From assembly GCF_025755255.1 (NCBI RefSeq), contig NZ_JALIEB010000020.1, positions 1-64,000 of the forward strand: a stretch of DNA of 64,000 nt, read 5' to 3'. The notes beneath the pieces are model-generated. The model was not told the origin of the DNA and made no database searches. It saw only the letters and a list, made by a program, of their open reading frames with translations. Source of the stretch: Roseobacter sinensis (GTDB lineage: Bacteria > Pseudomonadota > Alphaproteobacteria > Rhodobacterales > Rhodobacteraceae). Positions 29,264 to 64,000 of the stretch are shown one piece after another (within the stretch, counting starts at the first letter, position 1; every line of letters begins with the position of its first letter). The translations under genes were made by a program, and so were the position numbers.

Positions 29264-30646
29264 ATGAGCAGTGGCACCGCACCTCCCTATTTCAACATCT
29301 CGCCTGATGCGGCCCTTCGACAGCTGGACGCGCCCACTGATACGGATGGCTTTTCCGAAATCGCGCGCGCCTGCCTCCAGGGCCGGGACGACCTGGCCCG
29401 CCGCGGTATGAACGAGGCCGGTCAGAAGCGGCTGCGCCTGTTCTCGACCTGGGAAATCACAAAGTACCTCATTCCCGTGGCCCCGGCCCATTTTCGCCGC
29501 GTGCTGCGTCAGAACCCCAACCTTCCGCAGGGCCGCAGCGAGACCGAAGGCGGCTCGAAATGGTTCAGTCTGGACGAGGTTCTGACCCTGCGGGCGCATT
29601 TCGGTGCGGAAGGATCGAAGGCTAAGGACTACATCCCCTATCGCCCTGCGGATGCGCCGGCAAAAATCGTGGCCGTTGCCAATTTCAAGGGCGGCGTCGG
29701 CAAGACCTCGACCTGCGCGCATCTGGCCATGTCCGCCGCCCTCGACGGCTACAAGGTGCTGATCCTGGATCTCGACAGCCAGGGGTCCATGACCTCGATC
29801 TTCGGGGGCACGGTGAGCGATGAGTGGCAGACAGTGTTCCCGCTGATCGCGCGGCACTATGCGCAGCGGCTACAGGCCGACAACCAGCGCCGCGCGGATA
29901 TGGGCGAGGCGCCTGTCGGGCTCGATGAGACGCTCTCCGAAGCCTTGCGCGTGCAGAGCAAGGATCTGATCCAGACCACCCATTGGCCGAACATCGATCT
30001 GATCGGCGCCCAGCTGAACCTCTATTGGTCGGAGTTCCAGATCCCCGTCTGGCGGATGCAGAGCCGGGGCTGGAAGCTTTGGGATGCCTTGTCCGAGACG
30101 CTGGCGGAGGACGGTGTGCTGGAACAGTACGATCTGGTCTTCATCGACACCCCCCCTGCCCTGGGCTATCTGACGATCAACGGGCTGTCGGCCGCGGATA
30201 TCCTGCTGGTGCCTCTGGGCGCCAGTTTTCTGGAGTTCGATTCCACCGGGCGCTTCTTCGACATGCTGCATGCGACCTTCAGCTCGATCGAACAGGGCGA
30301 GAATACCGCCGCCCGCGCCCTGGGGCGGCCCGAAATGGCCTTTGAGTGGGATGCGGTGCGCGCCATCATCACGCGATACGACGGCAGCCAGCAGGCGGAA
30401 ATGGCCGGGCTGATCCAATCCTATCTCGGGCGCGCCCTATCCCCCTACCGGCAGGATTTCACCGCACTCATCGGCCAGGCCGGAGAAAGCGTGAACGGGA
30501 TCTACGAAGCGGATTACCGCGATTTCAATCGCGAAACCTACGCCCGCGGCCGCGCCACCTTCGACGACACCTATGCGGCGTTCAAGACCCTGTTGCTGGG
30601 GATCTGGCGCCGGGACGAACTGGCCGCGCAAGCGGCTGCGGAATGA
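29264..30646 (+). CDS. parA: Partition ATPase ParA
   Basis: A 460-residue ParA-type ATPase. The N-terminal 120 residues form a DNA-binding-like region (STWEITKYLIPVAPAHFRRVL), then the deviant Walker A in VANFKGGVGKTSTCAHL near residue 145, the A' motif ILDLDSQGSMT, and Walker B in FIDTPPALGYL. With the N-terminal extension this is the type Ia class, which also represses its own operon. ATG 29264 has AAGGGG seven bases upstream. ParB follows 13 bp after the stop. It ensures segregation of this replicon. Confidence 0.95.
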   Translation: MSSGTAPPYFNISPDAALRQLDAPTDTDGFSEIARACLQGRDDLARRGMNEAGQKRLRLFSTWEITKYLIPVAPAHFRRVLRQNPNLPQGRSETEGGSKWFSLDEVLTLRAHFGAEGSKAKDYIPYRPADAPAKIVAVANFKGGVGKTSTCAHLAMSAALDGYKVLILDLDSQGSMTSIFGGTVSDEWQTVFPLIARHYAQRLQADNQRRADMGEAPVGLDETLSEALRVQSKDLIQTTHWPNIDLIGAQLNLYWSEFQIPVWRMQSRGWKLWDALSETLAEDGVLEQYDLVFIDTPPALGYLTINGLSAADILLVPLGASFLEFDSTGRFFDMLHATFSSIEQGENTAARALGRPEMAFEWDAVRAIITRYDGSQQAEMAGLIQSYLGRALSPYRQDFTALIGQAGESVNGIYEADYRDFNRETYARGRATFDDTYAAFKTLLLGIWRRDELAAQAAAE

Positions 30647-30659
30647 GAAAGGGCGCGGC

Positions 30660-31679
30660 ATGGCGAAACGCAAACGGCTGATCGTACCGGAGCGCAGCGG
30701 AGCGCAGGAGCCGCCAGTTGCGCGCCTGGGGTCCGAGACCCGGCCATGGCCCGGTGCGGATCCGGCCGAGGCCGCGCCTGGGCGTGCCCCGATTGCGCAG
30801 GTGGCCGGCGATGCTGCGGCGCAATCCGCGCTTGAAGATCTTGCCGCAGAGATGCACCGGGCGCGCCGCGACGGCCGTCTGGTTCAGGCCCTGCCCCTCG
30901 ACCGCGTCTGCGAAGATCACATGGTGCGTGACCGGATTGAGGTCGCCGCGGATGATATGGCGGCCCTGAAAGCCTCGATCCAGGCGCGCGGCCAGCAAAC
31001 CCCCATCGAGGTGATCGCCCTTAACGACGGGACATACGGGCTGATCTCGGGCTGGCGGCGGTTGCAGGCGCTGCGGGCGCTGCATGCCGAGACCGGGCTG
31101 CCGGAATTCGCCACGATTTCTGCTCTGATCAAGACATTAGAGACTGTATCGGACAGTTATGTCGCCATGGTCGAGGAGAACGAGATCCGTGTCGGCCTGT
31201 CGTACTATGAACGCGCGCATCTGGTCTGTGCGGCGGTGAAGCTCGGTGTCTACGCCACTGCCTCCGAGGCGATCCAGACACTGTTCGCCAATGGCAGCGC
31301 TGCGAAACGATCGAAGATCGGCGTCTTTGTGCGCCTGCATGACGCTTTCGGCACCGCCCTGCGGTTCCCGACGGCCATTCCCGAGCGCCTCGGCCTGGCG
31401 CTGGCCGCGGCGCTGGAGGCGGATGCCGCCTTCGGGCCCCGTGTGCGGGACATGTTACGCAAGACCCCGGCGGCGGATGCGGCTGCGGAGCGGTCCGCCC
31501 TGGAGCGGCAGCTCAAGAAGCGTACGCCTACGAAAAAGACCTCTGGCGTGGAGGTGGCGCCGGGGATCACGGCGCAGCTCAACAACGGACGGGCGGTGCT
31601 GGCCGGGACGGGTGTGGATGCACGTTTCCTCGACGATCTGCGCACCTGGGTCGCGCAGCGTCAGGCACCGGATGCCTGA
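30660..31679 (+). CDS. parB: Partition protein ParB
   Basis: A 339-residue ParB/RepB-type protein. A basic N-terminus (MAKRKRLIVPERSG) is followed by the ParB-like nuclease/CTPase domain: IEVAADDMAALKASIQARGQQTPIEV and YGLISGWRRLQALRAL (the GWRR motif). The helix-turn-helix region follows VEENEIRVGLSYYERAHLV. It binds the centromere and loads ParA. The start has a purine-rich AGAAAGGG upstream. The candidate centromere lies 60 bp downstream. Confidence 0.94.
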   Translation: MAKRKRLIVPERSGAQEPPVARLGSETRPWPGADPAEAAPGRAPIAQVAGDAAAQSALEDLAAEMHRARRDGRLVQALPLDRVCEDHMVRDRIEVAADDMAALKASIQARGQQTPIEVIALNDGTYGLISGWRRLQALRALHAETGLPEFATISALIKTLETVSDSYVAMVEENEIRVGLSYYERAHLVCAAVKLGVYATASEAIQTLFANGSAAKRSKIGVFVRLHDAFGTALRFPTAIPERLGLALAAALEADAAFGPRVRDMLRKTPAADAAAERSALERQLKKRTPTKKTSGVEVAPGITAQLNNGRAVLAGTGVDARFLDDLRTWVAQRQAPDA

Positions 31680-44953: not shown

Positions 44954-45829
44954 ATGGTGGCAGAGCTTTACACATCGTTTTTTGGCTTCTCGGAGCGGCC
45001 TTTCACGCTCCTGCCGGATCCGGACTTCCTGTTCTGGTCGGACAGCCACAAGCGGGCGTATTCGGTGCTTGAGTACGGGCTGGCGACGCGCGCGCCCCTG
45101 ACGGTCGTGACCGGCGAGATCGGCGCGGGCAAAACCACGCTGGTTCAGCACCTGCTGAGCACGCTGGACGATGACGTCACCATTGGCCTGATTTCCAACG
45201 CGCAGGGCGGGCGCGGCGACCTGCTGCGCTGGGTGCTCTATGCCCTGTCGATCGAAGCGATGGCGCAGGACGATTACATCACCCTCTTCCGGCGCTTCCA
45301 GGAATTCGTGCTGGATGAATACGCCAAGGGGCGTCACGTGGTGCTGGTGATCGACGAGGCCCAGAACCTCTCGGTGGAGGCGCTCGAGGAGCTGCGCATG
45401 CTCACCAACATCAACTCCAACAAGGACGAGCTGCTGCAGCTGATCCTGGTGGGGCAGCCGGAGTTGCGGGACATGATCGCGAGCCCCTATCTGGTTCAGT
45501 TCTCGCAGCGGGTGACGGCGACCTACCATCTCCAGCCGCTGGATCTGAAGCAGACGAAGGCCTATATCCAGCACCGCCTGATCCATGTGGGCGGCACGGG
45601 CAACGAGATGTCCTCCTATGCGATCAAGAGCATCTACGAAGAGAGCGGGGGGGTGCCCCGGCTGATCAACAAGTACTGCGATCTGGCGTTCGTCTATGCC
45701 GCGGCGAGCGAAAAGCGGATCGTCGGGATCGATCAGGTGCGCGAGCTGGTCGACGACGGCATCTTCGTGAAGATCCAGCCGGACAGCACGCTTGTGCTTG
45801 AAAACCCAATTTTCAAGGTTGCGGAATGA
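44954..45829 (+). CDS. ExeA/GspA-like ATPase of exosortase EPS loci
   Basis: A 291-residue AAA+ ATPase. It starts with YTSFFGFSERPFTLLPDPDFLFWS, the ExeA-type opening, followed by Walker A TGEIGAGKTTL near residue 52, Walker B VVLVIDEAQNLS and sensor IDQV regions. This subfamily is regularly placed in PEP-CTERM/exosortase EPS clusters, between the chain-length genes and the TPR protein. It probably powers assembly or export of polysaccharide at the inner membrane. The last 4 bases overlap the next start (ATGA). Confidence 0.92.
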   Translation: MVAELYTSFFGFSERPFTLLPDPDFLFWSDSHKRAYSVLEYGLATRAPLTVVTGEIGAGKTTLVQHLLSTLDDDVTIGLISNAQGGRGDLLRWVLYALSIEAMAQDDYITLFRRFQEFVLDEYAKGRHVVLVIDEAQNLSVEALEELRMLTNINSNKDELLQLILVGQPELRDMIASPYLVQFSQRVTATYHLQPLDLKQTKAYIQHRLIHVGGTGNEMSSYAIKSIYEESGGVPRLINKYCDLAFVYAAASEKRIVGIDQVRELVDDGIFVKIQPDSTLVLENPIFKVAE

Positions 45830-47382
45830 TTAACGATCTCAAGTTCTACCTCAGGCTTCTGGTCCGGCGCTCGCCGGCCATGGTTGCGCTCTTCCTTCTG
45901 GCGGCCTGTATCGGCGTGCTGATGGCGCTGCGGTTGCCGCCGACCTTCTCGACCAGCGCGCAGTTGCTGGTCGAGAGCCCGCAGATCCCCGACAGCATGG
46001 TGCGCTCCACGATCGACGTCGATCCGCTGGAGCAGCTCGAGGTCATCCAGCAGCGTCTGCTGACCCGCGCGAATTTGCTGGATGTGGCGCGCAACAACAA
46101 CATCTTCCCCAACCAGTCGGCGATGAACCCGGACGATGTGGTGGCCCAGATGCGGTCGCGGACGTCCATCAAACGCACCAGCGGGCGCAACCGCGCGACG
46201 CTCATGACCGTCGGCTTCAGAGGCGACAATCCGAACAAGGTCACCGGGGTCGTGAATGAATATGTGACCATCATTCTGTCCGCAAACAGCAGCTTCCGGG
46301 CCGAGCGCGCCGAAAACACGCTCGATTTCTTCCAAAAGGAAGTCTCCGACTTCTCGACGGAGCTCAACGAGATCAATGCGCGCATCGTGCAGTTCAAGAA
46401 TGAAAACGCCGACGCTCTGCCGGAGAACCTCAACTTCCGGCTGGAGCGGCAGTCCTTTCTGCAGGAACGGCTGTCGCGGGCCGAGCGGGATCGCGATGCG
46501 CTGGTGGCGCAGCGCGAGAATATCAAACGGATCTTCCAGACAGCGGGCGCCCTGAACCCCGCTGCCGCCCAGCCGGCGCGGTCTCCCGAAGAGGCCGAGT
46601 TGCGCCGGCTGCAAAGCGAGCTGCGGTCGGCCCTTGGCGTCTATTCCGAGCAGAACCCGAAGATCAAACTGCTGCGCAACCGCATCGAGACGCTGACCGC
46701 CCAGATCGGCGTGCAGGCGCTCAATGACACGGCGTCGGATCTCAGCCCCGAGGAGCTGGCCGAGACACAGCGGGTGGAGGCTTTCGAGGTGTCCCTGGCC
46801 GAGATCGACACCCGCATCGAAACGATCGATGAAGAGATCGTGGACATCACCGCCGAGCTGGGGCGCCTTCAGGATACGATCGAGCGGACCCCGGCAAACC
46901 GGATTGCGCTCGACGATATGGAGCGGGACCGGGAAAATACGCGCAGCCTGTACAACAGTGCCGTGCAAGGGCTCTCGCAGGCCCGGACGGGCGAGCGGAT
47001 CGAGCTGTCGGCACGCGGTCAGCGGATCACGGTTCTGGAGCCGGCCTCGGTGCCGCGGCGGCCGTCGGGCCCTAACCGGTCTGCAATCGCAGGCATGGGG
47101 GTCGCGATCGGGCTTGCCCTGGCGGGGGCGTTTTTCTTCCTGCTGGAGTTCATCAACCAGTCCATCCGCCGCCCATCCGAGATTGAAAATGCGCTGCAGA
47201 TCACGCCTCTGATCACGATCCCGAGCTTCGAGCCTCCGGCGCGGCGCCGGTGGCGGCACATCCTGCTGCTGTCATCGACCGGGCTCGTCATCATATCCGT
47301 CCCGATCATCCTCTGGGCGGTCGACACCTATTACATGCCGCTCGATCTGGTCTTCCAGAAACTCAAGGACCTTGTGCTGTAG
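45826..47382 (+). CDS. Wzz/GumC-type polysaccharide co-polymerase (chain length determinant)
   Basis: A 518-residue inner-membrane protein. The N-terminal Wzz domain and membrane helix are at residues about 15-40 (AMVALFLLAACIGVLMAL). A long coiled-coil periplasmic region is at about 150-370, and the second helix is at about 420-445 with the proline-rich segment before it (EPASVPRRPSGPNRSAIAGMGVAIGLALAGAFFFLLEF). A third hydrophobic stretch is near 477-497. It sets EPS chain length and pairs with the BY-kinase that follows 62 bp later. Overlaps the ATPase gene by 4 bp. Confidence 0.9.
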   Translation: MINDLKFYLRLLVRRSPAMVALFLLAACIGVLMALRLPPTFSTSAQLLVESPQIPDSMVRSTIDVDPLEQLEVIQQRLLTRANLLDVARNNNIFPNQSAMNPDDVVAQMRSRTSIKRTSGRNRATLMTVGFRGDNPNKVTGVVNEYVTIILSANSSFRAERAENTLDFFQKEVSDFSTELNEINARIVQFKNENADALPENLNFRLERQSFLQERLSRAERDRDALVAQRENIKRIFQTAGALNPAAAQPARSPEEAELRRLQSELRSALGVYSEQNPKIKLLRNRIETLTAQIGVQALNDTASDLSPEELAETQRVEAFEVSLAEIDTRIETIDEEIVDITAELGRLQDTIERTPANRIALDDMERDRENTRSLYNSAVQGLSQARTGERIELSARGQRITVLEPASVPRRPSGPNRSAIAGMGVAIGLALAGAFFFLLEFINQSIRRPSEIENALQITPLITIPSFEPPARRRWRHILLLSSTGLVIISVPIILWAVDTYYMPLDLVFQKLKDLVL

Positions 47383-47444
47383 GGCCCCTGCTCTTGCGCC
47401 GGATCCTTTGGATGTCATCAATGCTTCACGGGTAGTCAGCTTTT

Positions 47445-48272
47445 ATGGAAAAACTGCAAAAAGCGCTGAGCAAGGCTCGGCAGGAACGCGGCGAGGTGAA
47501 ATCCGGCGTCAAACCCCATGCGCCCCGAACCCGCCTGGCGCGCTCCGAGCCGAGCGCCGTCGATCAGGCCTGGGCCGCGCTCACACCCTTCGAGCCGGAT
47601 CCGCAGCTGCTGGAACGCAACACGATCCTTGCCCATACCGCACAGAAAGAGGCCGCCTCCTTCGATATTCTGCGCACCAAGATCTTCCTGACCATGCGCG
47701 AGAACGGCTGGAAACGGGTCGCCGTCACCTCGCCGGATTCAGGGTCCGGCAAGACGACGATCTCCTGCAACCTGGCAGCGGGGTTCTCGCGGCAGACCGA
47801 AGCGCGGGCCATGCTTCTGGATGCCGACCTGCGGATGCCGAGCATTGCCAGCCGGCTCGGATGCACGCCGGCGCATGATCTGTGCGACGTGTTGACCGGG
47901 CAGGTCCCGCCGCAGGAGCAGCTTCTGAGGTTGCGCGACAATGTGGCGATGTCGCTGTCTTCGAAACCGGTCAAGGACCCGACGAAGCTCTTGCTGTCCG
48001 ACAAGGTGCCCAAGGCGCTCGACGATCTGCAGGCGCAGTTCGAACCGGATATCATGATCTTCGATTTGCCGCCCATGCTGCTGATCGACGACACCCGGGC
48101 CACGCTGGAGAATGTCGATTGCGCTCTGATCGTCGTGCGCTCGGAGCAGACGCATCTGTCGCGCCTCGACGTGTGCGAACGCGAAGTCGCCGAGTGCACC
48201 AATGTTCTGGGCGTCGTTCTGAACGATTGCCGGAACATCACCGAAGACGACAGCGAATACGGCTACGGCTGA
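47445..48272 (+). CDS. Bacterial tyrosine kinase (CpsD/EpsG-like) of EPS locus
   Basis: A 275-residue P-loop protein: Walker A SPDSGSGKTTISCNLA near residue 98, A' motif MLLDADLRMPSIA and Walker B IMIFDLPPMLL. The domain is separate from its membrane co-polymerase (upstream gene), as in CpsC/CpsD systems. Only one short tyrosine-bearing tail (SEYGYG) is present, so autophosphorylation capacity looks small. It regulates polymerisation by the Wzz-like protein. Ends 54 bp before a convergent pyruvyltransferase gene. Confidence 0.88.
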   Translation: MEKLQKALSKARQERGEVKSGVKPHAPRTRLARSEPSAVDQAWAALTPFEPDPQLLERNTILAHTAQKEAASFDILRTKIFLTMRENGWKRVAVTSPDSGSGKTTISCNLAAGFSRQTEARAMLLDADLRMPSIASRLGCTPAHDLCDVLTGQVPPQEQLLRLRDNVAMSLSSKPVKDPTKLLLSDKVPKALDDLQAQFEPDIMIFDLPPMLLIDDTRATLENVDCALIVVRSEQTHLSRLDVCEREVAECTNVLGVVLNDCRNITEDDSEYGYG

Positions 48273-49341: not shown

Positions 49342-50517
49342 TTGGGGGGCGGGCTCTGCCGGGCAGGTATCCAGTGCGGTTGCGCGGTGCGCCGGGTGAC
49401 GGGTTCCGCTGCCGGTCACATCGGCCCTCTGCATCAGGCGCATGCACGGCGGCAGCAGGGCCAGAAACTGCTGCGCGCGGCAGGCTGGAAGGCTCTGCAC
49501 CCGCGCCGTCGATCAGTCTTGTACGGACCGGCGATCTTTGACAACCCCTATCAGACGCTGCTCTACAGCGCCTTTGCCAGCCGCGTCTCGGCTGCGGCGC
49601 CCGCACGGCTCAAGCTCTATCAGACCCTGGGGCTGGCCCAGGTGTATCATCTGCACTGGGACGAGTTTCACCTGACCCCGGGGCCCGGCGGGCAGGCCCC
49701 CTCTTACTGCGCTCGGCTCGAGGCGTTTCAGGCGCGGGGCGGCACGCTGGTGTGGACGGTGCACAACGCCGATGCCCATACCGAAATGGCCCCACAGACG
49801 CAGGCGCTGTTCGACGCGGGGCGGGCCTTTCTGTGCGCCCGGGCCGACGTGATCCATGTGCACAGCCAGCAGGCGCAGGATCTGATCCAAACGCGCTATG
49901 GGGCGGACCCTGCCAGAATCGTCGTGATCCCGCATCCCAGCTACCTCGGCTGGTATGCCCCGCCGGCGGATCCGGCGCAGCTTGCCGCGACGGGGCGATT
50001 TCTGGCCTTTGGGTTCTTCCGCGAGAACAAGGGGCTGGATCTGATCCTCGAGGGCCTGCGCCGTGCCGCCGAGACGGCGACGCTCGAAGGGGTGCATATT
50101 GCCGGGCGCGGCGCAGAACGGGTGCAGGACGCAGTGCTTCCGGGGGTGCCCATGCAGGTCTCGTCGGGGTTCATCCCGGATGCCCGGGTCGCCGAGATCT
50201 TCGGGGAGGCGGATTTCTGCATCTTCGGGTTTTCCAGCATTCTGACATCGGGCTCTGTGATGCTGGCCCTGACCTTCGGCACGGTGCCGATCCTGCCGGA
50301 TCTGCCGGCGCTGCGCGACGTGCTGCCGGCCTCTCTGCGGCGGTTCTGCTATCGGGCGGGTGATGCCGAGGATCTGGCGCGCACCATCGCGGAGGCGGCG
50401 CAGATGCCGGCGGAGGCGGTGCGCGAGATGCGCCAGGCGGCGCTGGATGCGGCCCGGCGCCACGATCCCGAAACGATATCGGCCCGGCTCGAACGCGCGA
50501 TCGAGGCTGTCTTTTGA
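49342..50517 (+). CDS. Glycosyltransferase family 4-like (GT-B)
   Basis: Up to 391 residues. The N-terminal domain has HLHWDEFHLTPG and LVWTVHNADAHTEMAPQ, and the C-terminal donor domain has AFGFFRENKGLDLILEGL and an E-containing region FGEADFCIFGFSSILTSG. This resembles GT4 enzymes of the GumH/AceA type. The start is uncertain: TTG 49342 is the first possible, GTG 49396 is another, and none has a strong ribosome binding site. The ORF is open upstream only briefly. Divergent from the second pyruvyltransferase gene; followed by the export gene 193 bp later. Confidence 0.75.
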   Translation: MGGGLCRAGIQCGCAVRRVTGSAAGHIGPLHQAHARRQQGQKLLRAAGWKALHPRRRSVLYGPAIFDNPYQTLLYSAFASRVSAAAPARLKLYQTLGLAQVYHLHWDEFHLTPGPGGQAPSYCARLEAFQARGGTLVWTVHNADAHTEMAPQTQALFDAGRAFLCARADVIHVHSQQAQDLIQTRYGADPARIVVIPHPSYLGWYAPPADPAQLAATGRFLAFGFFRENKGLDLILEGLRRAAETATLEGVHIAGRGAERVQDAVLPGVPMQVSSGFIPDARVAEIFGEADFCIFGFSSILTSGSVMLALTFGTVPILPDLPALRDVLPASLRRFCYRAGDAEDLARTIAEAAQMPAEAVREMRQAALDAARRHDPETISARLERAIEAVF

Positions 50518-50710
50518 GCACTGACCGAGAGGCGCGTGCGTCTGTGAATCCGCGCGATTATGGGCGGGATTCGGCCCGTTCTTGCCAAATCCCGTGTTAT
50601 AAGGACAACATACCAGTACGGTGTCACCCGGCGGAGCACATTAACGTTCTACCGGATACGGGAACAGGTTATCGTTCGCGAGAAAAGCCAACACCAAATT
50701 GAGGCCCCAA

Positions 50711-51322
50711 ATGAAAACCCTACTGGCAGCACTTTTCACCTTACTGTTTTCAGTTGTCGCCGTCAGCGCGCAGAGCAACTACCGTCTGCAGCCCGGCGAT
50801 ACGCTGGCCGTTGAGGTGCTGGAGGATTCCCTGCTCAACCGCTCGGTGCTGGTCCTGCCCGACGGGAGCATCAACTTTCCGTTTGCAGGCACCATTACCG
50901 CCGCCGGCCGGACCGTGGCCGACGTGCAAAGGGCCATCGCCGATGGAATCGCGGTGAACTTCGCATCGCCCCCCACGGTTTTTGTCACCGTCAGCTCCGT
51001 GCAGCCGGTTGATCCGGAGGTTGCCGCGGCCGCGACGGAAGAGACCATCAACGTCTACTTTGCCGGCGAGGTCGGCACACCCGGGCTGCGCCAGGTTCTG
51101 GCCGGGAGCACGTTCCTGCAGGCCTTTTCGCAAAGCGGCGGTCTGACGAATTTCGCCGCCTCCAAGCGGATTCAGTTGCGGCGGACCGACCCGCGCACCA
51201 ATGAGCACCAGGTTTTCGAGATCAACTACCGTGCGATCTCGAACGGCGGCTCTTTCGAGCGCGACATCGTCTTGCAGGATGGTGATGTCATCCTCGTTCC
51301 GGAACGTAGGCTCTTTGAATAA
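50711..51322 (+). CDS. Polysaccharide export outer-membrane protein (Wza/Poly_export family)
   Basis: A 203-residue protein with a Sec signal (MKTLLAALFTLLFSVVAVSA), no lipobox, then the Poly_export domain (YRLQPGDTLAVEVLEDSLLNRSVLVLPDGSINFPFAGTI) and a SLBB domain (INVYFAGEVGTPG). This is the short, XrtD/exosortase-locus form of Wza. It forms or helps form the outer-membrane channel. ATG 50711 has GAGG six bases upstream. Same transcription unit as the beta-barrel gene that starts 12 bp after its stop. Confidence 0.92.
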   Translation: MKTLLAALFTLLFSVVAVSAQSNYRLQPGDTLAVEVLEDSLLNRSVLVLPDGSINFPFAGTITAAGRTVADVQRAIADGIAVNFASPPTVFVTVSSVQPVDPEVAAAATEETINVYFAGEVGTPGLRQVLAGSTFLQAFSQSGGLTNFAASKRIQLRRTDPRTNEHQVFEINYRAISNGGSFERDIVLQDGDVILVPERRLFE

Positions 51323-54026: not shown

Positions 54027-57000
54027 ATGAGCGATCAAACGCAAAACAGCATTTCCAACACGATCGAAGCGGTGCAGCTGGACGGAACGCTGAAAACGAC
54101 TGTGACCGGAGGGCGCGTCACCACATTGGATTTGCCGGATCAGAACATTGTCGGTGTACGGGTTCTGGAAAATGCGGATTTCGGCAATGTCACGGTCAAT
54201 CCGGACAATTCCCTGGCGCTTGTTCTGACCGGGATCAACAACAGCGAAACCGAGGCGCTGGATTTCGAGGTCGAGGTCGCTTACGCGAATGGCGGCACCT
54301 CCGTGAAGACTGTCAATGTCACCGTCGAGCCGCCGCTGCAGGACTCGGGCTGGGGCACGGGTGACTTCTACATGCTGGAGACCGATGCGCAGGGCGATCT
54401 GGTCATCGAGCACGGCGACAATCACCGCAAGGTCTATATTTCAGGCGATGAAAGCGCCTTGACCCTGGCCGAGATCGCGCAGGAAAACGGCCTCGACGTG
54501 AGCAAGATCACGGGAGAGTGGCTGGCTGACAACCCCGAATACGGCAGCACACCCGGCAAGGCGCTTGCCGCCGATGCCGGCATGGCGCTGTGGTATTCCA
54601 TCAATGGGCTTCGTGAGGATGCGAATTCCAACTGGCTGCTGTTCGAGCGGGGCTATGACTATGGGGATGTGGGCCGGCTGATCCCGCGGGGCGCGCGCGG
54701 GGAATCCGAACTGCACCCGCAGGTCATCACGGCTTATGGTACCGGGGACCGGCCGGTGATCCAGTCCGAAGCCAACATGTTCCAGTCGCGCAACGAGAAC
54801 ATCGTGATCCAGGACCTCGATTTCCAGGAAGGGGTCAAGGCGTTCTGGGGTGAAAACGTCATCTTCGACAATGTCTCGGTCACCGGCGGCATTTTCAGCG
54901 TCAGAAGCATGGATGGGTTCACGCTGCGCAACTCCGAAGTCATCGATGTGGTGCGGGACGAGCCGATCAACAGCGCGGACGGGACCTGGGAGCAGGTGTC
55001 GAACCGCATCTCGGGCCTCTATGTCACGCTGAGCGACGGTGTGCTGGTCGACAACAACCTTCTGGATCACAATGGCTGGGAAGAGGGCTACGATTACAAT
55101 GTCTCGACCGATGCGGGCCAGCCCCCCAGCTTCTACAGCCACAATGTCTATATTCAGTCGGCCAATGACGACGTCACCTTCAGCAACAACATCAATATGC
55201 GCGGCGCCTCCTTCGGGGCGCAGATCCGGTCAGGAGGATTCATCGAGGACAACATCTTCCTCGACAACAATGCGGCGCTGAGCACATTCGGCGGGAACTT
55301 CGACAATCAGGGCTATACCGCAAACTACTCGCTCATTGCCGATAACCTCGTGGTGTCCGCAGGCCACAAGCGGGTTGCCGAAAAGGAAGGGGCCTTGTCC
55401 CTCGGTATCGGGGCCTACGGGCAGACCCCGACGCTGGTCGACAACATCATCACCCACCTGGCCGATCCCAACAACCCGGCGGAGCAGGCGGAAAAGACCG
55501 ACACCAACAGCCCGCTGAAAACCAGCGTCAATGCCGAAGCGCCGGTTTTTGACGATACGATCATCTACAACTGGCTTGGAGATATCGCGCGCAAGAAAAA
55601 CGGGCCCAACAACACCAATGTCGAAGGGCTCGACCCGGCGGTTCTGGATCAGACCACGATCCAGAAATTTGCGGCCCAGGTGCTCAACAAGCCCAATGCG
55701 ACGATCTCCGATCTTGCCGATTATCTGCGGGCGAATGCGGATGGCTCCGGCAGCAATGCGGTCGATGCCGATATGATCCTTGCATACTTCCAGAAGAGTT
55801 TCGGCATTGCCCAAGAGGCCCGGACCGACGATGAGGTCGTGCGGTTCGTGCCCAATGCGATCGGCGACGGTGTGCGCTGGGACAACCGTCTCAACTGGAG
55901 CACGGAGGATCTGCCGGGCAGCGTTGCGGGCGACAGCGTGGCCTTGGCCGGCAACTGGGTGAACTACGCCGGCACCACGACCCTCAAGGGGCTGGACCTG
56001 GGGCAGGGCGGGCGGCTCGCGATCTCGCAGGGTCATCTCGAGGTCACCGGCGGGATCACCGCCGATATGACCGGCCGGATCACCATCGACCGCGCCGGGC
56101 AGCTGTGGGCCGCCTCGTACCGTGACAGCGATCTGCTCGATCTCGATATCGATGGCGGGCGCTTTGCCAATACGGGTGTTTTCGAAGGGCGGGCCGATAT
56201 CGATATTTCGGACAATGCCCAGGCCATTCTCGCAACCGATGGCGCGCGGTTCGTGCTGGGCAGCACAAGCAGCCTGAGCATCGAGGGCAGCGACGCCAAG
56301 GTCGGTTTCGATGGCGACAGCACCCAGCAGGCCAGCCTGAGCTTCGCATCCGGATCGGAACTGCGCTTCGTGGCCGATGCCGACGGGCTGGGCAGCATCA
56401 CCGAATTCCGCAGCGGTCACTTCAGTGCCGGGACCGATGTCCGCTCGGCCGTCGATATCGACGGGGCGCAACTGGAACTCGATCTGTCACAGCTGACCGC
56501 GACCTTGAGCGGGGCAACCACCCTGATCGAGGCGGATGAGCTCACCGGCCGGTTTGCCTCCGTCAATGTGACGGGACTTGCCAACGGGAAGGATGCGTTC
56601 CTGACCTACAACTATGCCGCTGACGAGATCACCCTGCGGCTGGGTGTCAGCCAGGGGGACGGCGGCAAGCTGTTCATCTCCGAGATCCAGGAAGACAACG
56701 GTCCGGTCAATACCGCGCCCGAGGCCGTCAACGACGCCTATTCAACGGCCTTCGACACCAAGCTGGTCGTGGGGGCCCAGCAAGGGGTGCTGTCCAATGA
56801 CAGCGATGTGGACGGCGACACGCTTCTGGGGCAGGTCCTGACAGGACCCAGGCACGGCACGCTCACCCTCTCGGCGGAGGGCGGGTTCGAATATACCCCC
56901 GAGCGCGCATTCAGCGGCACCGATACCTTCACCTACGAGGTCTCCGACGGGTCCGGTGGGGTCGATACGGCGACGGTGGAGATCACGGTGGAGGATCCGG

Positions 57001-57341
57001 TCGATCAGGGGCCGAGCCTCGTGCTCGGCACCGACGGCAACGATTATCTGACCGGCACCGATGCGGATGAGGTTCTGCGCTCCTTCGGGGGTCGTTCGGA
57101 TGTTCTTGCGGGCGGCGCGGGGGCCGATGTCTTCGATTTCTCGAGCTCGGTCGGCAATGGCGTGCGGGAGACGCGCACCATTCGCGACTTCGAGGTTGGA
57201 ATCGATTCTATCGATCTGGGCGATCACGAGGTCGCATCATTTCGCGTTATGGGGCAGAGCCTCTACATCACTCTCGACCCTGAGTTGGATATGCTGATCC
57301 TGAATGGCGTCACGACACTCGACGACAGCTACTTTATCTGA
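54027..57341 (+). CDS. Large secreted beta-helix/VCBS/RTX-type protein, possible polysaccharide lyase or epimerase
   Basis: 1104 residues without a signal peptide. Residues about 240-470 form a right-handed parallel beta-helix (repeats such as IVIQDLDFQEGVKAFW, VIFDNVSVTGGIFSV), a fold of polysaccharide lyases and C5-epimerases. A middle region of repeated strands follows. A cadherin/VCBS-like domain is at about 895-990 (NDAYSTAFDTKLVVG, DVDGDTLLG, GGFEYTPERAFSGTDTFTYEVSDG). A short Ca-binding RTX stretch (GTDGNDYLTGTDADEV, GGAGADVFDF) is near 1000-1045. The C-terminal RTX region points to type I secretion, but no type I transporter is in the window. It probably cuts, binds or remodels the EPS; catalytic residues cannot be named. 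Confidence 0.8.
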   Translation: MSDQTQNSISNTIEAVQLDGTLKTTVTGGRVTTLDLPDQNIVGVRVLENADFGNVTVNPDNSLALVLTGINNSETEALDFEVEVAYANGGTSVKTVNVTVEPPLQDSGWGTGDFYMLETDAQGDLVIEHGDNHRKVYISGDESALTLAEIAQENGLDVSKITGEWLADNPEYGSTPGKALAADAGMALWYSINGLREDANSNWLLFERGYDYGDVGRLIPRGARGESELHPQVITAYGTGDRPVIQSEANMFQSRNENIVIQDLDFQEGVKAFWGENVIFDNVSVTGGIFSVRSMDGFTLRNSEVIDVVRDEPINSADGTWEQVSNRISGLYVTLSDGVLVDNNLLDHNGWEEGYDYNVSTDAGQPPSFYSHNVYIQSANDDVTFSNNINMRGASFGAQIRSGGFIEDNIFLDNNAALSTFGGNFDNQGYTANYSLIADNLVVSAGHKRVAEKEGALSLGIGAYGQTPTLVDNIITHLADPNNPAEQAEKTDTNSPLKTSVNAEAPVFDDTIIYNWLGDIARKKNGPNNTNVEGLDPAVLDQTTIQKFAAQVLNKPNATISDLADYLRANADGSGSNAVDADMILAYFQKSFGIAQEARTDDEVVRFVPNAIGDGVRWDNRLNWSTEDLPGSVAGDSVALAGNWVNYAGTTTLKGLDLGQGGRLAISQGHLEVTGGITADMTGRITIDRAGQLWAASYRDSDLLDLDIDGGRFANTGVFEGRADIDISDNAQAILATDGARFVLGSTSSLSIEGSDAKVGFDGDSTQQASLSFASGSELRFVADADGLGSITEFRSGHFSAGTDVRSAVDIDGAQLELDLSQLTATLSGATTLIEADELTGRFASVNVTGLANGKDAFLTYNYAADEITLRLGVSQGDGGKLFISEIQEDNGPVNTAPEAVNDAYSTAFDTKLVVGAQQGVLSNDSDVDGDTLLGQVLTGPRHGTLTLSAEGGFEYTPERAFSGTDTFTYEVSDGSGGVDTATVEITVEDPVDQGPSLVLGTDGNDYLTGTDADEVLRSFGGRSDVLAGGAGADVFDFSSSVGNGVRETRTIRDFEVGIDSIDLGDHEVASFRVMGQSLYITLDPELDMLILNGVTTLDDSYFI

Positions 57342-58217: not shown

Positions 58218-59645
58218 ATGTCAGGCGTTTATCCGATCTTGTTGTGCGGTGGCTCAGGAACGCGGCTTTGGCCCTTGTCCCGCAAGTCTTATCCCAAGCA
58301 GTTTTCCAAGCTGACCGGAGGGCAGAGCCTGTTTCAGGCCTCGGCACAGCGCCTGTCCGGCCCGACTTATGAAGCGCCGATCATCGTCACGGCGGATGAT
58401 TTCCGCTTCATCGCCGCCGAGCAGCTGGCCGGTGTCGAACAGGCCGCCAAGGCCATCCTGATCGAGCCCGAAGCGCGCAATACGGCACCTGCCGTCCTGT
58501 CCGCGGCCGTGTGGCTGGCGCAGACGGATCCGGAGGCCGTGATGCTGGTGGCGCCGTCCGATCATGTCATTGCGGATGCAGAGCAGTTCCGCGCCGCCGT
58601 CGACGCGGCCCTGCCCGCCGCCCAAGGGGGTGCGATTGTCACCTTCGGCATCACCCCGACCCGTCCCGAGACCGGATATGGCTATCTGGAGCTGGCCGCC
58701 GGCGCCAGCACGGAAGCCACCGTGCCGCAGGATCTTGCGGGGTTCGTGGAAAAGCCCGATGCCGCGCGGGCCGAAGAGATGTTGGCGCGGGGTGGGTTTC
58801 TGTGGAATGCCGGGATCTTCCTGTTCTCGGTCCGCACCATCCTGGCCGCTTTTGAGACCCATGCGCCCGAGATCCTCGCCGGCGTGCGTGCGGCCGTGGC
58901 CGATGCAAAGAGCGATCTGGGCTTCACCCGGCTGGCCTCGGACGCTTGGGCGCAGCTTGAGGATATCTCGATCGACTACGCCGTCATGGAGCGGGTCGAA
59001 AACCTGATGGTCATGCCCTATCCGGGGGCCTGGTCCGATCTGGGCAGCTGGGAGGCGGTCTGGCTGGAGAGCGATCCTGACACATCGGGCAATGTCTGTT
59101 CGCAGAATGCGACAGCAATTGACTGTCGCGACACCCTGCTGCGCAGCGAGGCGCCATCGCTCGAGCTTGTCGGCATCGGACTGGAGGATATGACAGTCGT
59201 GGCGATGCCGGATGCGGTGCTGGTCGCCCGCAAATCCGACGGCCAGCGCGTCAAGGAAGCCGTGGCGGCCCTCAAGGAAAGACAGGCCAAGCAGGCCGTG
59301 GAGTTCCCCGTGGATCACCGGCCGTGGGGCTGGTTCGAAAGCCTGGTGATTGCCGGCCGGTTCCAGGTGAAACGGATCGTGGTGCACCCGGGCGCATCGC
59401 TGAGCCTGCAAAGCCACCACCACCGGTCCGAACATTGGATCGTCGTGGAGGGCACCGCGAAGGTCACCGTCGATGACGAGGTCAAACTCGTGACCGAGAA
59501 CCAGAGCGTCTACATCCCGCTGGGGGCCGTGCACCGGATGGAAAACCCCGGGAAGGTGCCGATGGTTCTGATCGAAGTGCAAACCGGCAGCTATCTGGGG
59601 GAAGACGATATCGTGCGCTATGAAGATGCCTATGCCCGCAGCTGA
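58218..59645 (+). CDS. manC: Mannose-1-phosphate guanylyltransferase / mannose-6-phosphate isomerase
   Basis: A 475-residue bifunctional enzyme. The N-terminal GMP-transferase domain has [20 protein letters not shown] (residues about 10-29), VAPSDHVI, and a nucleotide-binding EKPDA. The C-terminal cupin domain has [44 protein letters not shown] with the metal-binding histidines. It makes GDP-mannose from mannose-1-phosphate and may isomerise fructose-6-phosphate. The usual partner phosphomannomutase may be the gene at 21336. Followed 10 bp later by ugd. Confidence 0.95.
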
Positions 59646-59655
59646 TGGACACAAC

Positions 59656-60831
59656 ATGACCGGGCAGAAGATCGCGGTCGCCGGCATCGGTTACGTGGGG
59701 CTGTCGATTGCCGTCCTGCTGGCCCAGAAGAACCGGGTCACAGCGGTTGATATCGATCCGGTGCGGGTGCAGCAGCTGAATGCGCGCCAGAGCCCGATCG
59801 TCGACCCCGATGTCGACAGCTACCTCAAGACCAGAGAGCTTGATCTCTCGGCCACGACGGATGGCGCCGCGGCATATCGCGAGGCGGATTTCGTGGTCGT
59901 GGCGACCCCGACGAATTACGACCCGCAAACCAACTTCTTCAATACATCCTCGGTCGAGGCTGTGGTGCGGGAGGTGAAGGCAGTCAACTCCGATGCCACG
60001 ATCGTGCTGAAATCGACGATCCCGGTGGGCTATACGGAGACGCTCAATGGCGACATCGACGGCTCGCGGGTGATCTTCAGCCCCGAGTTCCTGCGCGAAG
60101 GCAAGGCGCTTTACGACAATCTGCATCCGTCGCGCATCGTCGTCGGAGAGGTCTCGGAGCGCGCGAGCCGCTTTGCCGCGCTGTTGCAGGAGGGCGCGAT
60201 CGCGCGCGATATCCCGACGCTCTTTACCTCCTCGTCGGAGGCGGAAGCGATCAAGCTGTTTGCCAACACCTATCTTGCGATGCGCGTGGCCTATTTCAAC
60301 GAACTCGACAGCTATGCGCTGGTCCATGGCATGGACAGCCGCAATATCATCAAGGGGGTCGGGCTGGATCCGCGGATCGGCGAGCATTACAACAACCCCT
60401 CGTTCGGCTATGGCGGCTATTGCCTGCCAAAGGATACCAAGCAGTTGCTGGCCAACTACCAGTCGGTTCCGCAGAACCTCATGCAGGCGATCGTGGATGC
60501 CAACCGGACCCGCAAGGATTTCATCGCCGAGCAGATCCTGGCCCGCAATCCGAAATGCGTGGGCGTGCACCGGCTGGTCATGAAGGCGGGGTCCGACAAT
60601 TTCAGACAAAGCTCCATCCAGGGCATCATGAAGCGGTTGAAGGCCAAAGGGGTCGAGGTCGTCGTCTACGAGCCCGAGCTCGATGCGGTGGATTTCTTCG
60701 GTTCGGAACTGATCCACGATCTTGACCGTCTGAAAGAGGTCTCGGACATCATCCTGACCAACCGTCAGTCGGCGGATCTGGCGGATGTGGCGGAGAAAGT
60801 CTTTACCCGCGATCTGTTCGGGTCCGACTGA
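59656..60831 (+). CDS. ugd: UDP-glucose 6-dehydrogenase
   Basis: A 391-residue enzyme: Rossmann [15 protein letters not shown] at the N-terminus, [25 protein letters not shown], the catalytic cysteine in [15 protein letters not shown] near residue 259, and a C-terminal UDP-binding domain ([19 protein letters not shown]). It oxidises UDP-glucose twice to UDP-glucuronate, which the SDR at 25931 could epimerise to UDP-galacturonate. The start is placed at ATG 59656; upstream codons overlap the manC end. Length is that of the short Gram-negative form. Confidence 0.94.
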
Positions 60832-61151
60832 GCGTCAGGCCAGCCGTGACCGATGCGGTGCGACGGTCAGGCCGCGCACCGGCAAATCCGTTCCTTTCCG
60901 GCCCGGTCATCGTCTGTGCCAGGCGCCGGGTGGGCGGGGCAGCGCGCGCTGCATATCTCTTTTCTTAAACTTGCTGGTGGATAGATAGCGGCGATCGCGA
61001 CGGGGCTCCCGAAACGGAGTGCCACGACAGGAGCATTGAAATTCCATGCACCGGCGCAGTTCCCGCTGCTGCCAAAAGACCCTCACATATCTGGCACTCT
61101 GGTTTTGCGTGTTCGGAACACACACTCGCACCAAACGAGAAGGACGAAGAC
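60832..61151. other. Gene-free region between ugd and spike-like genes
   Basis: 320 bp with no convincing open frame. A small inverted repeat GTGTTCGGAACAC (61109-61121) lies 30 bp before the next gene, close to where a promoter or operator could be. The break in gene density here marks the boundary between EPS-synthesis genes and the spike-like module. Confidence 0.45.
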
Positions 61152-61412
61152 ATGACCGACAAGTTCAACAGTCACACAGCGGGCCTCTCGAGCCCCCCCG
61201 CCAATCTGATCGCCGTCACGCCAAGCGATGACACGGACCTGCCGATGGCAAGCCGGTGCATCAACGTCTCCGGGGGCGGGGCCGTGCGGGTCACCACCAT
61301 TCATGGCGACACGGCCACCCTTTTTGTCGCGGCCGGTGTCGTGTTCCCCATTCGGGCGCAGCGTATCCACGCGACGGACACCACGGCGACAGGCATTGTG
61401 GTGATGTACTGA
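61152..61412 (+). CDS. Spike base protein, RCAP_Rcc01079 (GTA head-spike) family
   Basis: An 86-residue soluble protein. The opening MTDKFNSHTAGLSSPPANL followed by AVTPSDDTDLPMASR, a short beta-rich middle and IRAQRIHATDTTATGIV is the pattern I recognise as the spike base protein family, named after R. capsulatus Rcc01079, part of the gene-transfer-agent head spike that binds the host capsule. AAGGA is 12 bases before the ATG. It overlaps the next gene by TGATG, consistent with a coupled spike operon. Recognition is from memory of family sequences. Confidence 0.72.
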   Translation: MTDKFNSHTAGLSSPPANLIAVTPSDDTDLPMASRCINVSGGGAVRVTTIHGDTATLFVAAGVVFPIRAQRIHATDTTATGIVVMY

Positions 61413-62782
61413 TGAGCGATATTTCGGTTGGGTGCGGCTTCTCGGGGTCGGGCCAATTCCCGGTGCTGCCCGTGCCGGAGCCGCAGGTCGTGTTCCGCGC
61501 CCTGCAGCCTCTGACCAGCACGCGGCTTCACGACAAGCAGGCCGTGCGGGATATGGCCAATTACGCGGATCTGGTTGCGCCCTCGAATTTCACCTCGACA
61601 GCGGGCCCGATCGACAGCGTACAGGTTATCTTCACCGGCGATGCGGTCTCGGCCGACGCACCTCTCTCCGAGGGCGATCAGGCGGGATACTCCGTGATCG
61701 TCACGGACAGCGATGGCAATACGGCGAGTTTTTCCGCGCCCATCATTCCGGTGGAATACGCGGTCCGGTTGATCGTCACCGGAGACGCCGAGATCGAGGT
61801 CGACCGCAACCCGATTGCGGTTTCGGGAATGTTCTCGCTGGATTTCACCGGTTCGGATGCGCCCTGGACCGATGTCTATCAGCTCGATCTGGCCGACTAC
61901 GTCAGCCGCCCCGTCATTCTGGCCACAGCGCCGATTACGGGTGTGCCGGCGATTGGCGAGGTGCTCGACGCCTTGCCCGGGCTGGCCATTTCGGAAGGTG
62001 CGGATGGTGTCGAGAGCCGGAGCTACCAGTGGTACAGCTTTGAGACCGCGACCCAGACGGCAGACGACCGCGCGCCCATATCCGGTGCGACAGCACAAAG
62101 CTATACGGTGCAGCCAGGGGATGCAGGTCGCACGCTGCTGCGCGGTGAACGCGCGATCGACAGCCGAGGGAGCAGCTCCGAGGCCTTCACGGCGAGCGTG
62201 TCGGTCACGGCGGTTCCGGTTGGCGTCACCGATACCTTCACGGACCCCGATGGCACGCTTCTCGACGCACATACACCCGACATCGGCGGCGCATGGAGCG
62301 CGGTCTCTGCCGTTGACACGGTTCCCGTGATCTCCAGCAACCGGCTGCTGGCCAATACCAGCCGGGGCGGCGGCACTTACTACATGCTCGATGCGATCAC
62401 GGCAGCGGATGTGCAGATTTCAGCCGATATGTTTTACGGCCCGACCTCCGGTGCCGGCGGGCTGACGGCCCGGGTCAGCGGCTCCGGATCCACCTTGTCG
62501 GGATATTACGGGCGGCTCAATTTCACGTCGGGTGTGCTGCAACTCTATGTGATCGTGAACAATTCGCTGTCGCTGATCGGAGAGGCAGCCTCATCCGACA
62601 TGACAACCGGCGTGGGCCGTCTGGCCCTGCGCTGTGTCGGACCTGTCATAGAGGTGATCTGGAACGGCACAGTTGTTATCTCCAGAACGAATACTTCCAT
62701 TGTAACACCGGGATATACCGGGATTGGCCATTATCGCGGCAATATGCTGCAGTGGGACAATTTCAACGTAGAGGTCTTGTGA
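61412..62782 (+). CDS. Putative spike/tail-associated protein with lectin-like C-terminal domain
   Basis: A 456-residue protein starting at ATG 61412, overlapping the previous stop. No signal peptide. Residues about 90-310 contain Ig-like strands (for example ITGVPAIGEVLDALPGL and ATAQSYTVQPGDAG), a pattern common in phage tail and GTA-related proteins of Rhodobacterales. Residues about 310-456 (DTFTDPDGTLLDAHTPDIGG to GIGHYRGNMLQWDNFNVEVL) look like a concanavalin-A/LamG-type lectin fold. Its stop overlaps the next start. Likely a carbohydrate-contacting part of the spike. Function inferred. Confidence 0.65.
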   Translation: MSDISVGCGFSGSGQFPVLPVPEPQVVFRALQPLTSTRLHDKQAVRDMANYADLVAPSNFTSTAGPIDSVQVIFTGDAVSADAPLSEGDQAGYSVIVTDSDGNTASFSAPIIPVEYAVRLIVTGDAEIEVDRNPIAVSGMFSLDFTGSDAPWTDVYQLDLADYVSRPVILATAPITGVPAIGEVLDALPGLAISEGADGVESRSYQWYSFETATQTADDRAPISGATAQSYTVQPGDAGRTLLRGERAIDSRGSSSEAFTASVSVTAVPVGVTDTFTDPDGTLLDAHTPDIGGAWSAVSAVDTVPVISSNRLLANTSRGGGTYYMLDAITAADVQISADMFYGPTSGAGGLTARVSGSGSTLSGYYGRLNFTSGVLQLYVIVNNSLSLIGEAASSDMTTGVGRLALRCVGPVIEVIWNGTVVISRTNTSIVTPGYTGIGHYRGNMLQWDNFNVEVL

Positions 62783-64000
62783 TGTCTGGACGGCGCGGAT
62801 TTATCTCTGGTTTGCTCTCGGGCACGGCTGTCACGATCATTCTTGGCAGCTCGACAGCTGCGGTTGCCCAGTATCAGGCTCCTTTCCCGATCCAGGGTCT
62901 TGTGGGTCTGTCGCAGGCTCAGTGGTCTTTGATCCCTGAACCAAGCCTGACGGGGGATACGGCGATTGTGGATATCACGGAGTTGCCCGAATATCCCCTG
63001 GGCTATCAGCCCGAAGCCTTCCGGGTACGTGTGAACGGCGGCGCACCGGTCACGCTGCCCTTTGCCAAGCGCACGAACAAGCCGCGCCACATCCGCATTC
63101 CGTCCAGCGGCACGGCAGCGGTTGAAGTGGCCATCGTCTGGCGCTCGGAAGAGGACAGGGCGACCAATGTCGAAAGTGTCTGGTCGGACGCCAAGACGGT
63201 CGAACCGATGACGACCTCCACGCCCAGCATTATCATCAGCAGCACCCGCACAACCGGCACGGCGCCTGCGGGGTTCATGTTCGTGGCAGAGGTCAATGGC
63301 TTTGGGGTGCTGAATCCGTCGCAGGATCTGCACTGGAAGTGGACCTATGACGACCCCGGTTCCGTCCACAAGCGGATGCGGCCCGAGTATGTGGCTGTGC
63401 ATGGCAACGATGCCAATGTGTCCTACGATCACGTGGGCGCCCATACCTTCGAAAGACCCGGCACCTACAGGGTCCGGCTGACCTGTACGGACCGTGACGG
63501 CAACAGCGTCACCTCCGACCCCTACCTGATCACCGTCGAGGATCCGGATGTCGTGTTTGCCGGTGCGAATACCATCGTGATCGCGCCGAGTGGCATGCAG
63601 AATATCGGACCGAGCGGTGCGCGGTATTTTGTCAGCCCGGCCGATGCCAGAAGCGCCTGGACCCAGTCGACGGGCCGGTACCGGCTGCTTCTGGAGCGGG
63701 GCTACAGCTATGAGCTCTACCAACAGCTCAATCGTCCGGCAGAGCTGCAGATTGGACCGTGCGGCTTCGGCCGGGACCCGCTGATCACCGAACGCATGCC
63801 GCTGACCTATGGCAACGGGGATGAGGCGGGATACTCCGTCTGGGGGCTGCAGTTCGATGACGGGTACGATCCGTCCAATCCCGAAGCCGGCTCCGGCACC
63901 CAGGGCGTCTACAACGCCATCGACATCGGCGTGCAGGATCTGACCATCCACGACTGCGGGTTCAGCGGCTTCAACGTGCCGATCCAGCCGTCCGACAACA
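62782..64000 (+). CDS. Beta-helix/PKD-domain protein with signal peptide, 3' end cut by window edge
   Basis: 406 residues readable from ATG 62782 (overlap TGATG) to the right edge, no stop. The start MSGRRGFISGLLSGTAVTI continues to a cleavage-like AVAQ: a twin-arginine-like signal. Residues about 130-250 contain a PKD-type domain (PGTYRVRLTCTDRDGNSVTS), and the C-terminal readable part repeats strands as in a right-handed beta-helix. This could be the polysaccharide-binding or -degrading fiber of the spike set, or a secreted EPS-active protein. An export signal is unexpected for a phage-type spike. Confidence 0.68.
   Translation, partial: MSGRRGFISGLLSGTAVTIILGSSTAAVAQYQAPFPIQGLVGLSQAQWSLIPEPSLTGDTAIVDITELPEYPLGYQPEAFRVRVNGGAPVTLPFAKRTNKPRHIRIPSSGTAAVEVAIVWRSEEDRATNVESVWSDAKTVEPMTTSTPSIIISSTRTTGTAPAGFMFVAEVNGFGVLNPSQDLHWKWTYDDPGSVHKRMRPEYVAVHGNDANVSYDHVGAHTFERPGTYRVRLTCTDRDGNSVTSDPYLITVEDPDVVFAGANTIVIAPSGMQNIGPSGARYFVSPADARSAWTQSTGRYRLLLERGYSYELYQQLNRPAELQIGPCGFGRDPLITERMPLTYGNGDEAGYSVWGLQFDDGYDPSNPEAGSGTQGVYNAIDIGVQDLTIHDCGFSGFNVPIQPSDN

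Follow-up and report, generated by a model that had tools for sequence, protein, structure and literature searches.

How gene transfer agents (GTAs) choose their recipients, and why producer cells that lyse keep such a system, is an open question. It is raised by a locus of Roseobacter sinensis in which genes resembling those of a GTA head spike lie beside genes for polysaccharide synthesis. The locus stands at the right-hand end of the window, by which we mean the whole stretch of 64,000 nucleotides (nt) that was analysed (assembly GCF_025755255.1, contig NZ_JALIEB010000020.1, positions 1 to 64,000). It comprises three genes, encoding a small protein of the head-spike base family of the Rhodobacter capsulatus GTA (RcGTA), a fiber-like protein and a third protein. 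What would such a spike be carried on, and what would it bind? We consider it moderately probable, on sequence evidence, that the products of genes 1 and 2 form a GTA head spike directed at the polysaccharide of their own locus; both its incorporation into particles and its binding of the sugar are what we infer.

Spike-base and fiber-like genes

Gene 1 (61152-61412, + strand) encodes a protein of 86 amino acids (aa) that matched the NCBIfam model NF048002 ('spike base protein, RCAP_Rcc01079 family') over positions 1-85 of 85 (5e-30, 103.6 bits against a cut-off of 28). Matches were also found to PHROG 12296 ('tail fiber protein', 5.6e-21) and to the solved Rcc01079 chain (PDB 6tb9, 3e-12), while a Pfam search of gene 1 gave no match up to E 1. 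Gene 1 is the one match to the NF048002 family found in the host genome. The initial annotation had assigned it to the RcGTA spike-base family and proposed a similarity search as the check, and the score bears the assignment out.

Gene 2 (61412-62782, + strand; 456 aa) encodes a head-fiber-like protein and its start overlaps the end of gene 1 by 1 nt, both genes being open, coupled reading frames. The ATG of gene 3 at 62782 falls inside the stop of gene 2 (TGATG). Because of this arrangement and the 1-nt overlap, the three genes are probably translationally coupled. In RcGTA, an alternating hydrophobic/small N-terminal peptide of the head fiber fills, and anchors in, the base pentamer, as described in the structure passage of PMC7296036. 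A similar alternating segment (61421-61441, + strand) is present at the N-terminus of protein 2, which begins MSDISVGCGF and scores 4 by an anchor rule of alternating hydrophobic and small residues devised after the N-termini had been listed. Further along the protein, Pfam matches point to a possible Ig-like middle (2.6e-4) and to a possible lectin-like C-terminal region (residues 333-454; 62408-62773, + strand; GH59 C-terminal lectin domain, PF21708, 2.8e-4), both weak and below their curated cut-offs. The lectin-like label given to this protein earlier therefore has a domain match behind it, but one under the threshold.

The spike base was present in 81 of 248 genomes sampled from the family. 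From these searches 91 spike loci were taken with up to 9.5 kb on each side (23 of the 91 regions are shorter than 19 kb where contigs end), two second-fragment match rows being dropped and one match under the cut-off (G223) retained. The anchor was enriched behind the spike base. At least four anchor hydrophobics were found at 22/91 places after the base versus 15/1281 after other genes of the same loci, and at least three at 36/91 versus 86/1281, in a wide count that took any start codon near the stop, so that some matches are no true fibers. When restricted to closely coupled next genes, starting -20 to +30 bases from the stop and encoding at least 100 aa, the figures were 21/57 versus 3/432 for at least four hydrophobics and 33/57 versus 21/432 for at least three. 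The anchor is also found in the phages Pben1 and P8625 and on plasmids of R. sulfidophilum, M. algicola and Jannaschia; the fiber of phage RcapMu has no anchor by the rule used. The anchor pattern is the strongest sign concerning protein 2 and suggests that it is a base-anchored fiber. Together with the 1-nt overlap, it upholds the earlier claim that the base gene is coupled to a fiber-like protein.

The base is constant and the fiber variable. In a comparison of 41 base-fiber pairs, picked mainly for the anchor with named phage and plasmid pairs added, bases were similar in 817/820 pairings versus 73/820 for fibers, although at least one of the 41 'fibers' (L053) is a glycosyltransferase by sequence; when it is left out the figures are 777/780 and 73/780. 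Similarity covers over 70% of the shorter fiber in 40 of the 73 similar fiber pairs. Fibers without BLAST similarity can go with bases that are 65-73% identical. Pfam domains were found in three of eight fibers scanned (a sialate O-acetylesterase in one and a LamG lectin domain in two), and the gene after the base is annotated as a sialate O-acetylesterase on three annotated plasmids. With looser local limits, the fiber of the window is partly similar to a protein of Jannaschia p1 (29% over about half). Loci such as L060, L071, L075 and L092 have a second type of base, which shows a motif like NPFxNR...LSGPATDI and is followed by fibers starting MKLTCDLS or similar.

Linkage of spike and polysaccharide genes

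To the left of the spike genes lies a set of polysaccharide genes, all on the + strand and recognised with Pfam. These encode a chain-length (Wzz-type) protein and a ParA/CpsD-type ATPase (45826-48272; its position suggests a kinase role), a glycosyltransferase family 4 (GT4) enzyme (49342-50517), a Wza-type polysaccharide export protein (50699-51322; Poly_export), a mannose-1-phosphate guanylyltransferase/mannose-6-phosphate isomerase (ManC, 58218-59645) and a UDP-glucose/GDP-mannose dehydrogenase (59620-60831). The contig also encodes glycosyltransferases and a flippase. A RepA-type replication initiator (27829-28845, - strand) shares 69% identity with replication initiator protein A of Jannaschia CCS1 p1, and ParA and ParB follow (29264-31679, + strand; Pfam AAA_31/ParA, and 44% identity to a ParB-domain protein of Jannaschia p1). 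By these replication and partition genes the contig of the window is plasmid-type. The spike genes are thus on a plasmid and beside polysaccharide genes, as had been annotated at the outset.

This linkage is common among the spike loci of the family. Polysaccharide genes were labelled by a six-frame search with hidden Markov models (HMMs), and 55 of all 91 spike loci carry at least two. The same was true of 27/40 spike loci versus 1/40 regions elsewhere on the same 40 contigs, a comparison in which the HMMs favour spike loci, because they were built from the gene clusters of those loci, and in which small plasmid contigs have no control region, because the 40 controls need contigs that are long enough. 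A Pfam scan independent of the loci (93 spike-side and 93 control open reading frames, ORFs) returned sugar-nucleotide and glycosyltransferase families among the matches listed for the spike side (25 of 94) and none among those listed for the controls (25 of 96), with small numbers of 1-4 members per family.

Thirty plasmid records carry the base, and 19 of these were viewed with flanks of 6-12 kb. Polysaccharide genes were in view on 15/19, phage genes on one (Tritonibacter), and on the other three polysaccharide genes were not clear, one of them having YjbF/YjbH at the edge of the view. A fiber-like next gene was not seen on some of the viewed plasmids, and on the R. litoralis plasmid the base is unannotated and in two pieces, then comes an acyltransferase. 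Four Rhodobacterales plasmids (R. sulfidophilum Plasmid3, Rhodovulum MB263 pRSMBB, M. algicola pMaD9 and Jannaschia CCS1 p1) have the base and next gene in or beside polysaccharide genes, as here; their base is annotated merely as a hypothetical protein, and the fiber sequences differ. On pMaD9 the base-fiber pair comes directly after rep-parA-parB. As a separate observation, the base lies directly beside partition or replication genes on 6/19 plasmids (L007, L175, L179, L181, L187, L191), as if it were plasmid backbone, and in L179 (S. faviae) no polysaccharide genes are in view.

One of the closest systems is the RcGTA head spike GhsA/GhsB (Rcc01079/Rcc01080), which lies beside the capsule genes rcc01081-01086 of R. 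capsulatus. According to PMC10218006, these capsule genes adjoin those of the head spike and share their regulation, and binding to the capsule requires the spike, in line with the statement of the initial annotation that the head spikes of this species bind the capsular polysaccharide. The two loci share the base family, a fiber gene next to it, the alternating N-terminal anchor and adjacent polysaccharide genes. Unlike GhsA/GhsB, the present genes are plasmid-borne, include a third coupled gene with an export-type N-terminus and have Ser for Glu12, and co-regulation with the GTA was not seen. Judged by its genes, the locus represents a plasmid-borne version of the RcGTA receptor-plus-spike arrangement. 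Since PMC10218006 states it for R. capsulatus, the linkage of spike and polysaccharide genes is already known in one species; its breadth across the family is new. No statement of family-wide linkage, plasmid location or fiber exchange was found in the literature, older subscription papers being outside the scope of that search.

Gene transfer agents in the host and the family

The host genome has eight RcGTA-type structural genes in one cluster on a contig (C38) separate from the plasmid contig. These are portal, capsid, head-tail connector, major tail, tape, distal tail, hub and NlpC peptidase, in a comparison that left out terminase, protease and megatron. The host scored 641 bits for the RcGTA portal, 593 bits for the capsid and 351 bits for RcGTA_tape. 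Across the family, the GTA distal tail protein was found in 72/81 genomes with a spike base versus 118/167 without (Fisher p 0.0013, an optimistic value as the genomes are related by descent). Of the nine spike-positive genomes without the distal tail protein, the GTA capsid protein was found in two; the other seven lack it, one of these seven being only 64% complete. At loci L093 (G141), L057 (G139) and L060 (G244), in genomes where neither GTA marker was found, the base and its fiber, anchored or almost so, both look open.

The third gene and flanking features

Gene 3 begins in the window (62782-64000, + strand), is cut by the window edge and continues to 65037 of the contig, giving 751 aa from its ATG. 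Its N-terminus, MSGRRGFISGLLSGTAVTIILGSSTAAVAQ, looks by eye like a twin-arginine (Tat)-type signal, in agreement with the export signal noted previously. The accompanying beta-helix/PKD label fared unevenly: a PKD domain is borderline, just over the cut-off for the window part and just under it for the whole protein, and Pfam gave no beta-helix in gene 3 at E 0.001. Seven relatives were found, at the spike loci L066, L090 and L112 and on four plasmids. Five of the seven were viewed (all except those on Palleronia LCG004 and Ruegeria), the plasmid places among them (Tateyamaria and Jannaschia W003) not belonging to the 19 spike plasmids. All five lie near polysaccharide genes, the two plasmid places being among glycosyltransferases, sulfotransferases or exosortase genes. 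The relatives have no evident signal by eye, unlike gene 3 itself. At L066 the relative comes directly after base and fiber, which counts against excluding gene 3 from the spike. On its export-type N-terminus and the position of its relatives, gene 3 is probably an exported protein of the polysaccharide locus and not a part of the capsid or its spike, with whose genes it had been grouped before; it would act on or with the polysaccharide.

Among the polysaccharide genes lies one (54027-57341, + strand; Pfam, tblastn and annotation) for a large, probably secreted protein that has cadherin/Ig and serralysin-C (RTX-type) domains. Relatives of this protein lie downstream of the spike genes on Jannaschia CCS1 p1 (45% identity, annotated as beta-helix) and R. 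sulfidophilum Plasmid3 (29%). A terminator-like hairpin, a weak prediction (60939-60952, + strand; two sites found versus 0.5 expected), separates the polysaccharide and spike genes. To the right of gene 3, the ORF list gives a 592-aa protein with phosphopantetheine (ACP) domains. The initial annotation had suggested reading right of 64000 for more spike or type I secretion system genes, and none was recognised up to the contig end at 66961. Positions 66339-66961 consist of perfect 273-base tandem repeats (2.3 copies, 100% match) that encode repeated ACP domains. By eye the protein with this array looks like a membrane acyltransferase, and the contig ends inside the array.

Discussion

If genes 1 and 2 do encode a GTA spike, the base would form pentamers at the capsid vertices, each holding a single fiber by the fiber's alternating N-terminal peptide. 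The capsid would most likely be that of the RcGTA-type GTA encoded elsewhere in the same genome, on whose heads the spike would be assembled. The distal part of the fiber, possibly lectin-like, would bind exopolysaccharide made by the neighbouring plasmid genes, to which the gene 2 fiber would be matched. Particles from plasmid carriers would then, we propose, adsorb to cells displaying that polysaccharide. The polysaccharide 'lock' and the spike 'key' seem to travel together.

Several observations weigh against this reading. By alignment to the solved chain, protein 1 has Ser in place of Glu12 of Rcc01079, which is a capsid contact in RcGTA according to the structure passage of PMC7296036. 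Glu at this position is no family rule, because the residue varies among the 88 of 100 bases in which it is readable (11 Glu, 12 Asp, 21 Ser, 19 Thr and 25 other). An anchor with at least three hydrophobics was not seen in 55/91 loci, several of them without a coupled fiber, and 36/91 loci have fewer than two polysaccharide genes. The fiber of the window had no relatives in plasmids at E 1e-5 and none in viral contigs, and no convincing match among solved chains, in a comparison that did not contain Rcc01080 itself. The region upstream of the spike genes showed no similarity beyond chance to that upstream of the GTA cluster (161/200 shuffles scored as high). In two phages, RcMrWorf (L171:10001-10294) and DSS3P8 (L172:8001-8267), the genes around the base are non-structural or hypothetical, none of them is named as fiber-like, and there is no tail context. 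Finally, 5/7 genomes with neither GTA marker carry two or more polysaccharide genes at a spike locus. The linkage therefore also occurs where no GTA was detected, and these loci weigh against a purely GTA role; in such genomes the spikes may have persisted after a GTA was lost, be carried on another capsid or have some other use.

An origin from phages also has to be weighed, the plasmid then keeping a phage-derived base and fiber that decorate the capsids of a resident prophage, or the debris of a polysaccharide-using phage. The family is carried by 27 named phage records, a further point against a GTA spike, despite which a single-protein scan of viral contigs for the base found none. RcapMu, Pben1 and P8625 (PHROG 12296) have, as here, a small base and then a fiber with a 1-nt overlap; the P8625 fiber has LamG lectin domains and both it and the Pben1 fiber are anchored. 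The Tritonibacter plasmid with its phage genes and the seven spike-positive genomes without both GTA markers point the same way. Unlike the present locus, however, the pairs of these three phages sit in phage genomes near tail genes, and no polysaccharide genes were seen there. Linkage to polysaccharide genes is common, the spike base goes with a GTA marker, and the genes are open and coupled, all of which speak against a phage spike. No phage genes were present in the ten neighbouring ORFs scanned, which are part of the window's ORFs, the genome itself not having been searched for prophages. We regard a phage or prophage spike as unlikely.

The five linked spike loci in genomes without GTA markers would also suit a role at the cell surface, in which base and fiber, perhaps with gene 3, leave the cell by release or export and act as adhesins or matrix proteins that attach to the producer's own polysaccharide. 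The Tat-like signal of gene 3 and the RTX-type C-terminus of the neighbouring large protein are consistent with this. However, no export signal was seen by eye in base or fiber, the anchor pattern fits a fiber held on a capsid spike, and the phages Pben1 and P8625 have fibers with this anchor after the base, which makes a surface role distinctly improbable. Least probable of all would be passive hitchhiking, with spike genes in polysaccharide islands by chance and fiber and polysaccharide functionally unlinked. On the base tree contexts do change frequently, with 30 Fitch changes over 101 bases, a count without shuffled-label comparison. The contrast between spike loci and same-contig control regions argues against chance, as does R. 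capsulatus, in which binding to the linked capsule depends on the linked spike (PMC10218006).

Taking the reading of a GTA spike aimed at the locus' own polysaccharide further is more speculative. Rhodobacterales polysaccharide loci, often on plasmids, might come with an exchangeable spike cassette in which base and anchor stay constant and the fiber varies. A cell that acquired such a locus would gain a new coat and at once re-aim its own GTA at cells with the same coat, a plasmid-borne green-beard that steers transfer to carriers of the same plasmid. We put this forward tentatively, and it may well prove wrong. If receptor synthesis and the matching spike do move as one locus, particle targeting would be a heritable and exchangeable trait, and genes now listed as 'hypothetical' on polysaccharide plasmids would gain possible functions.

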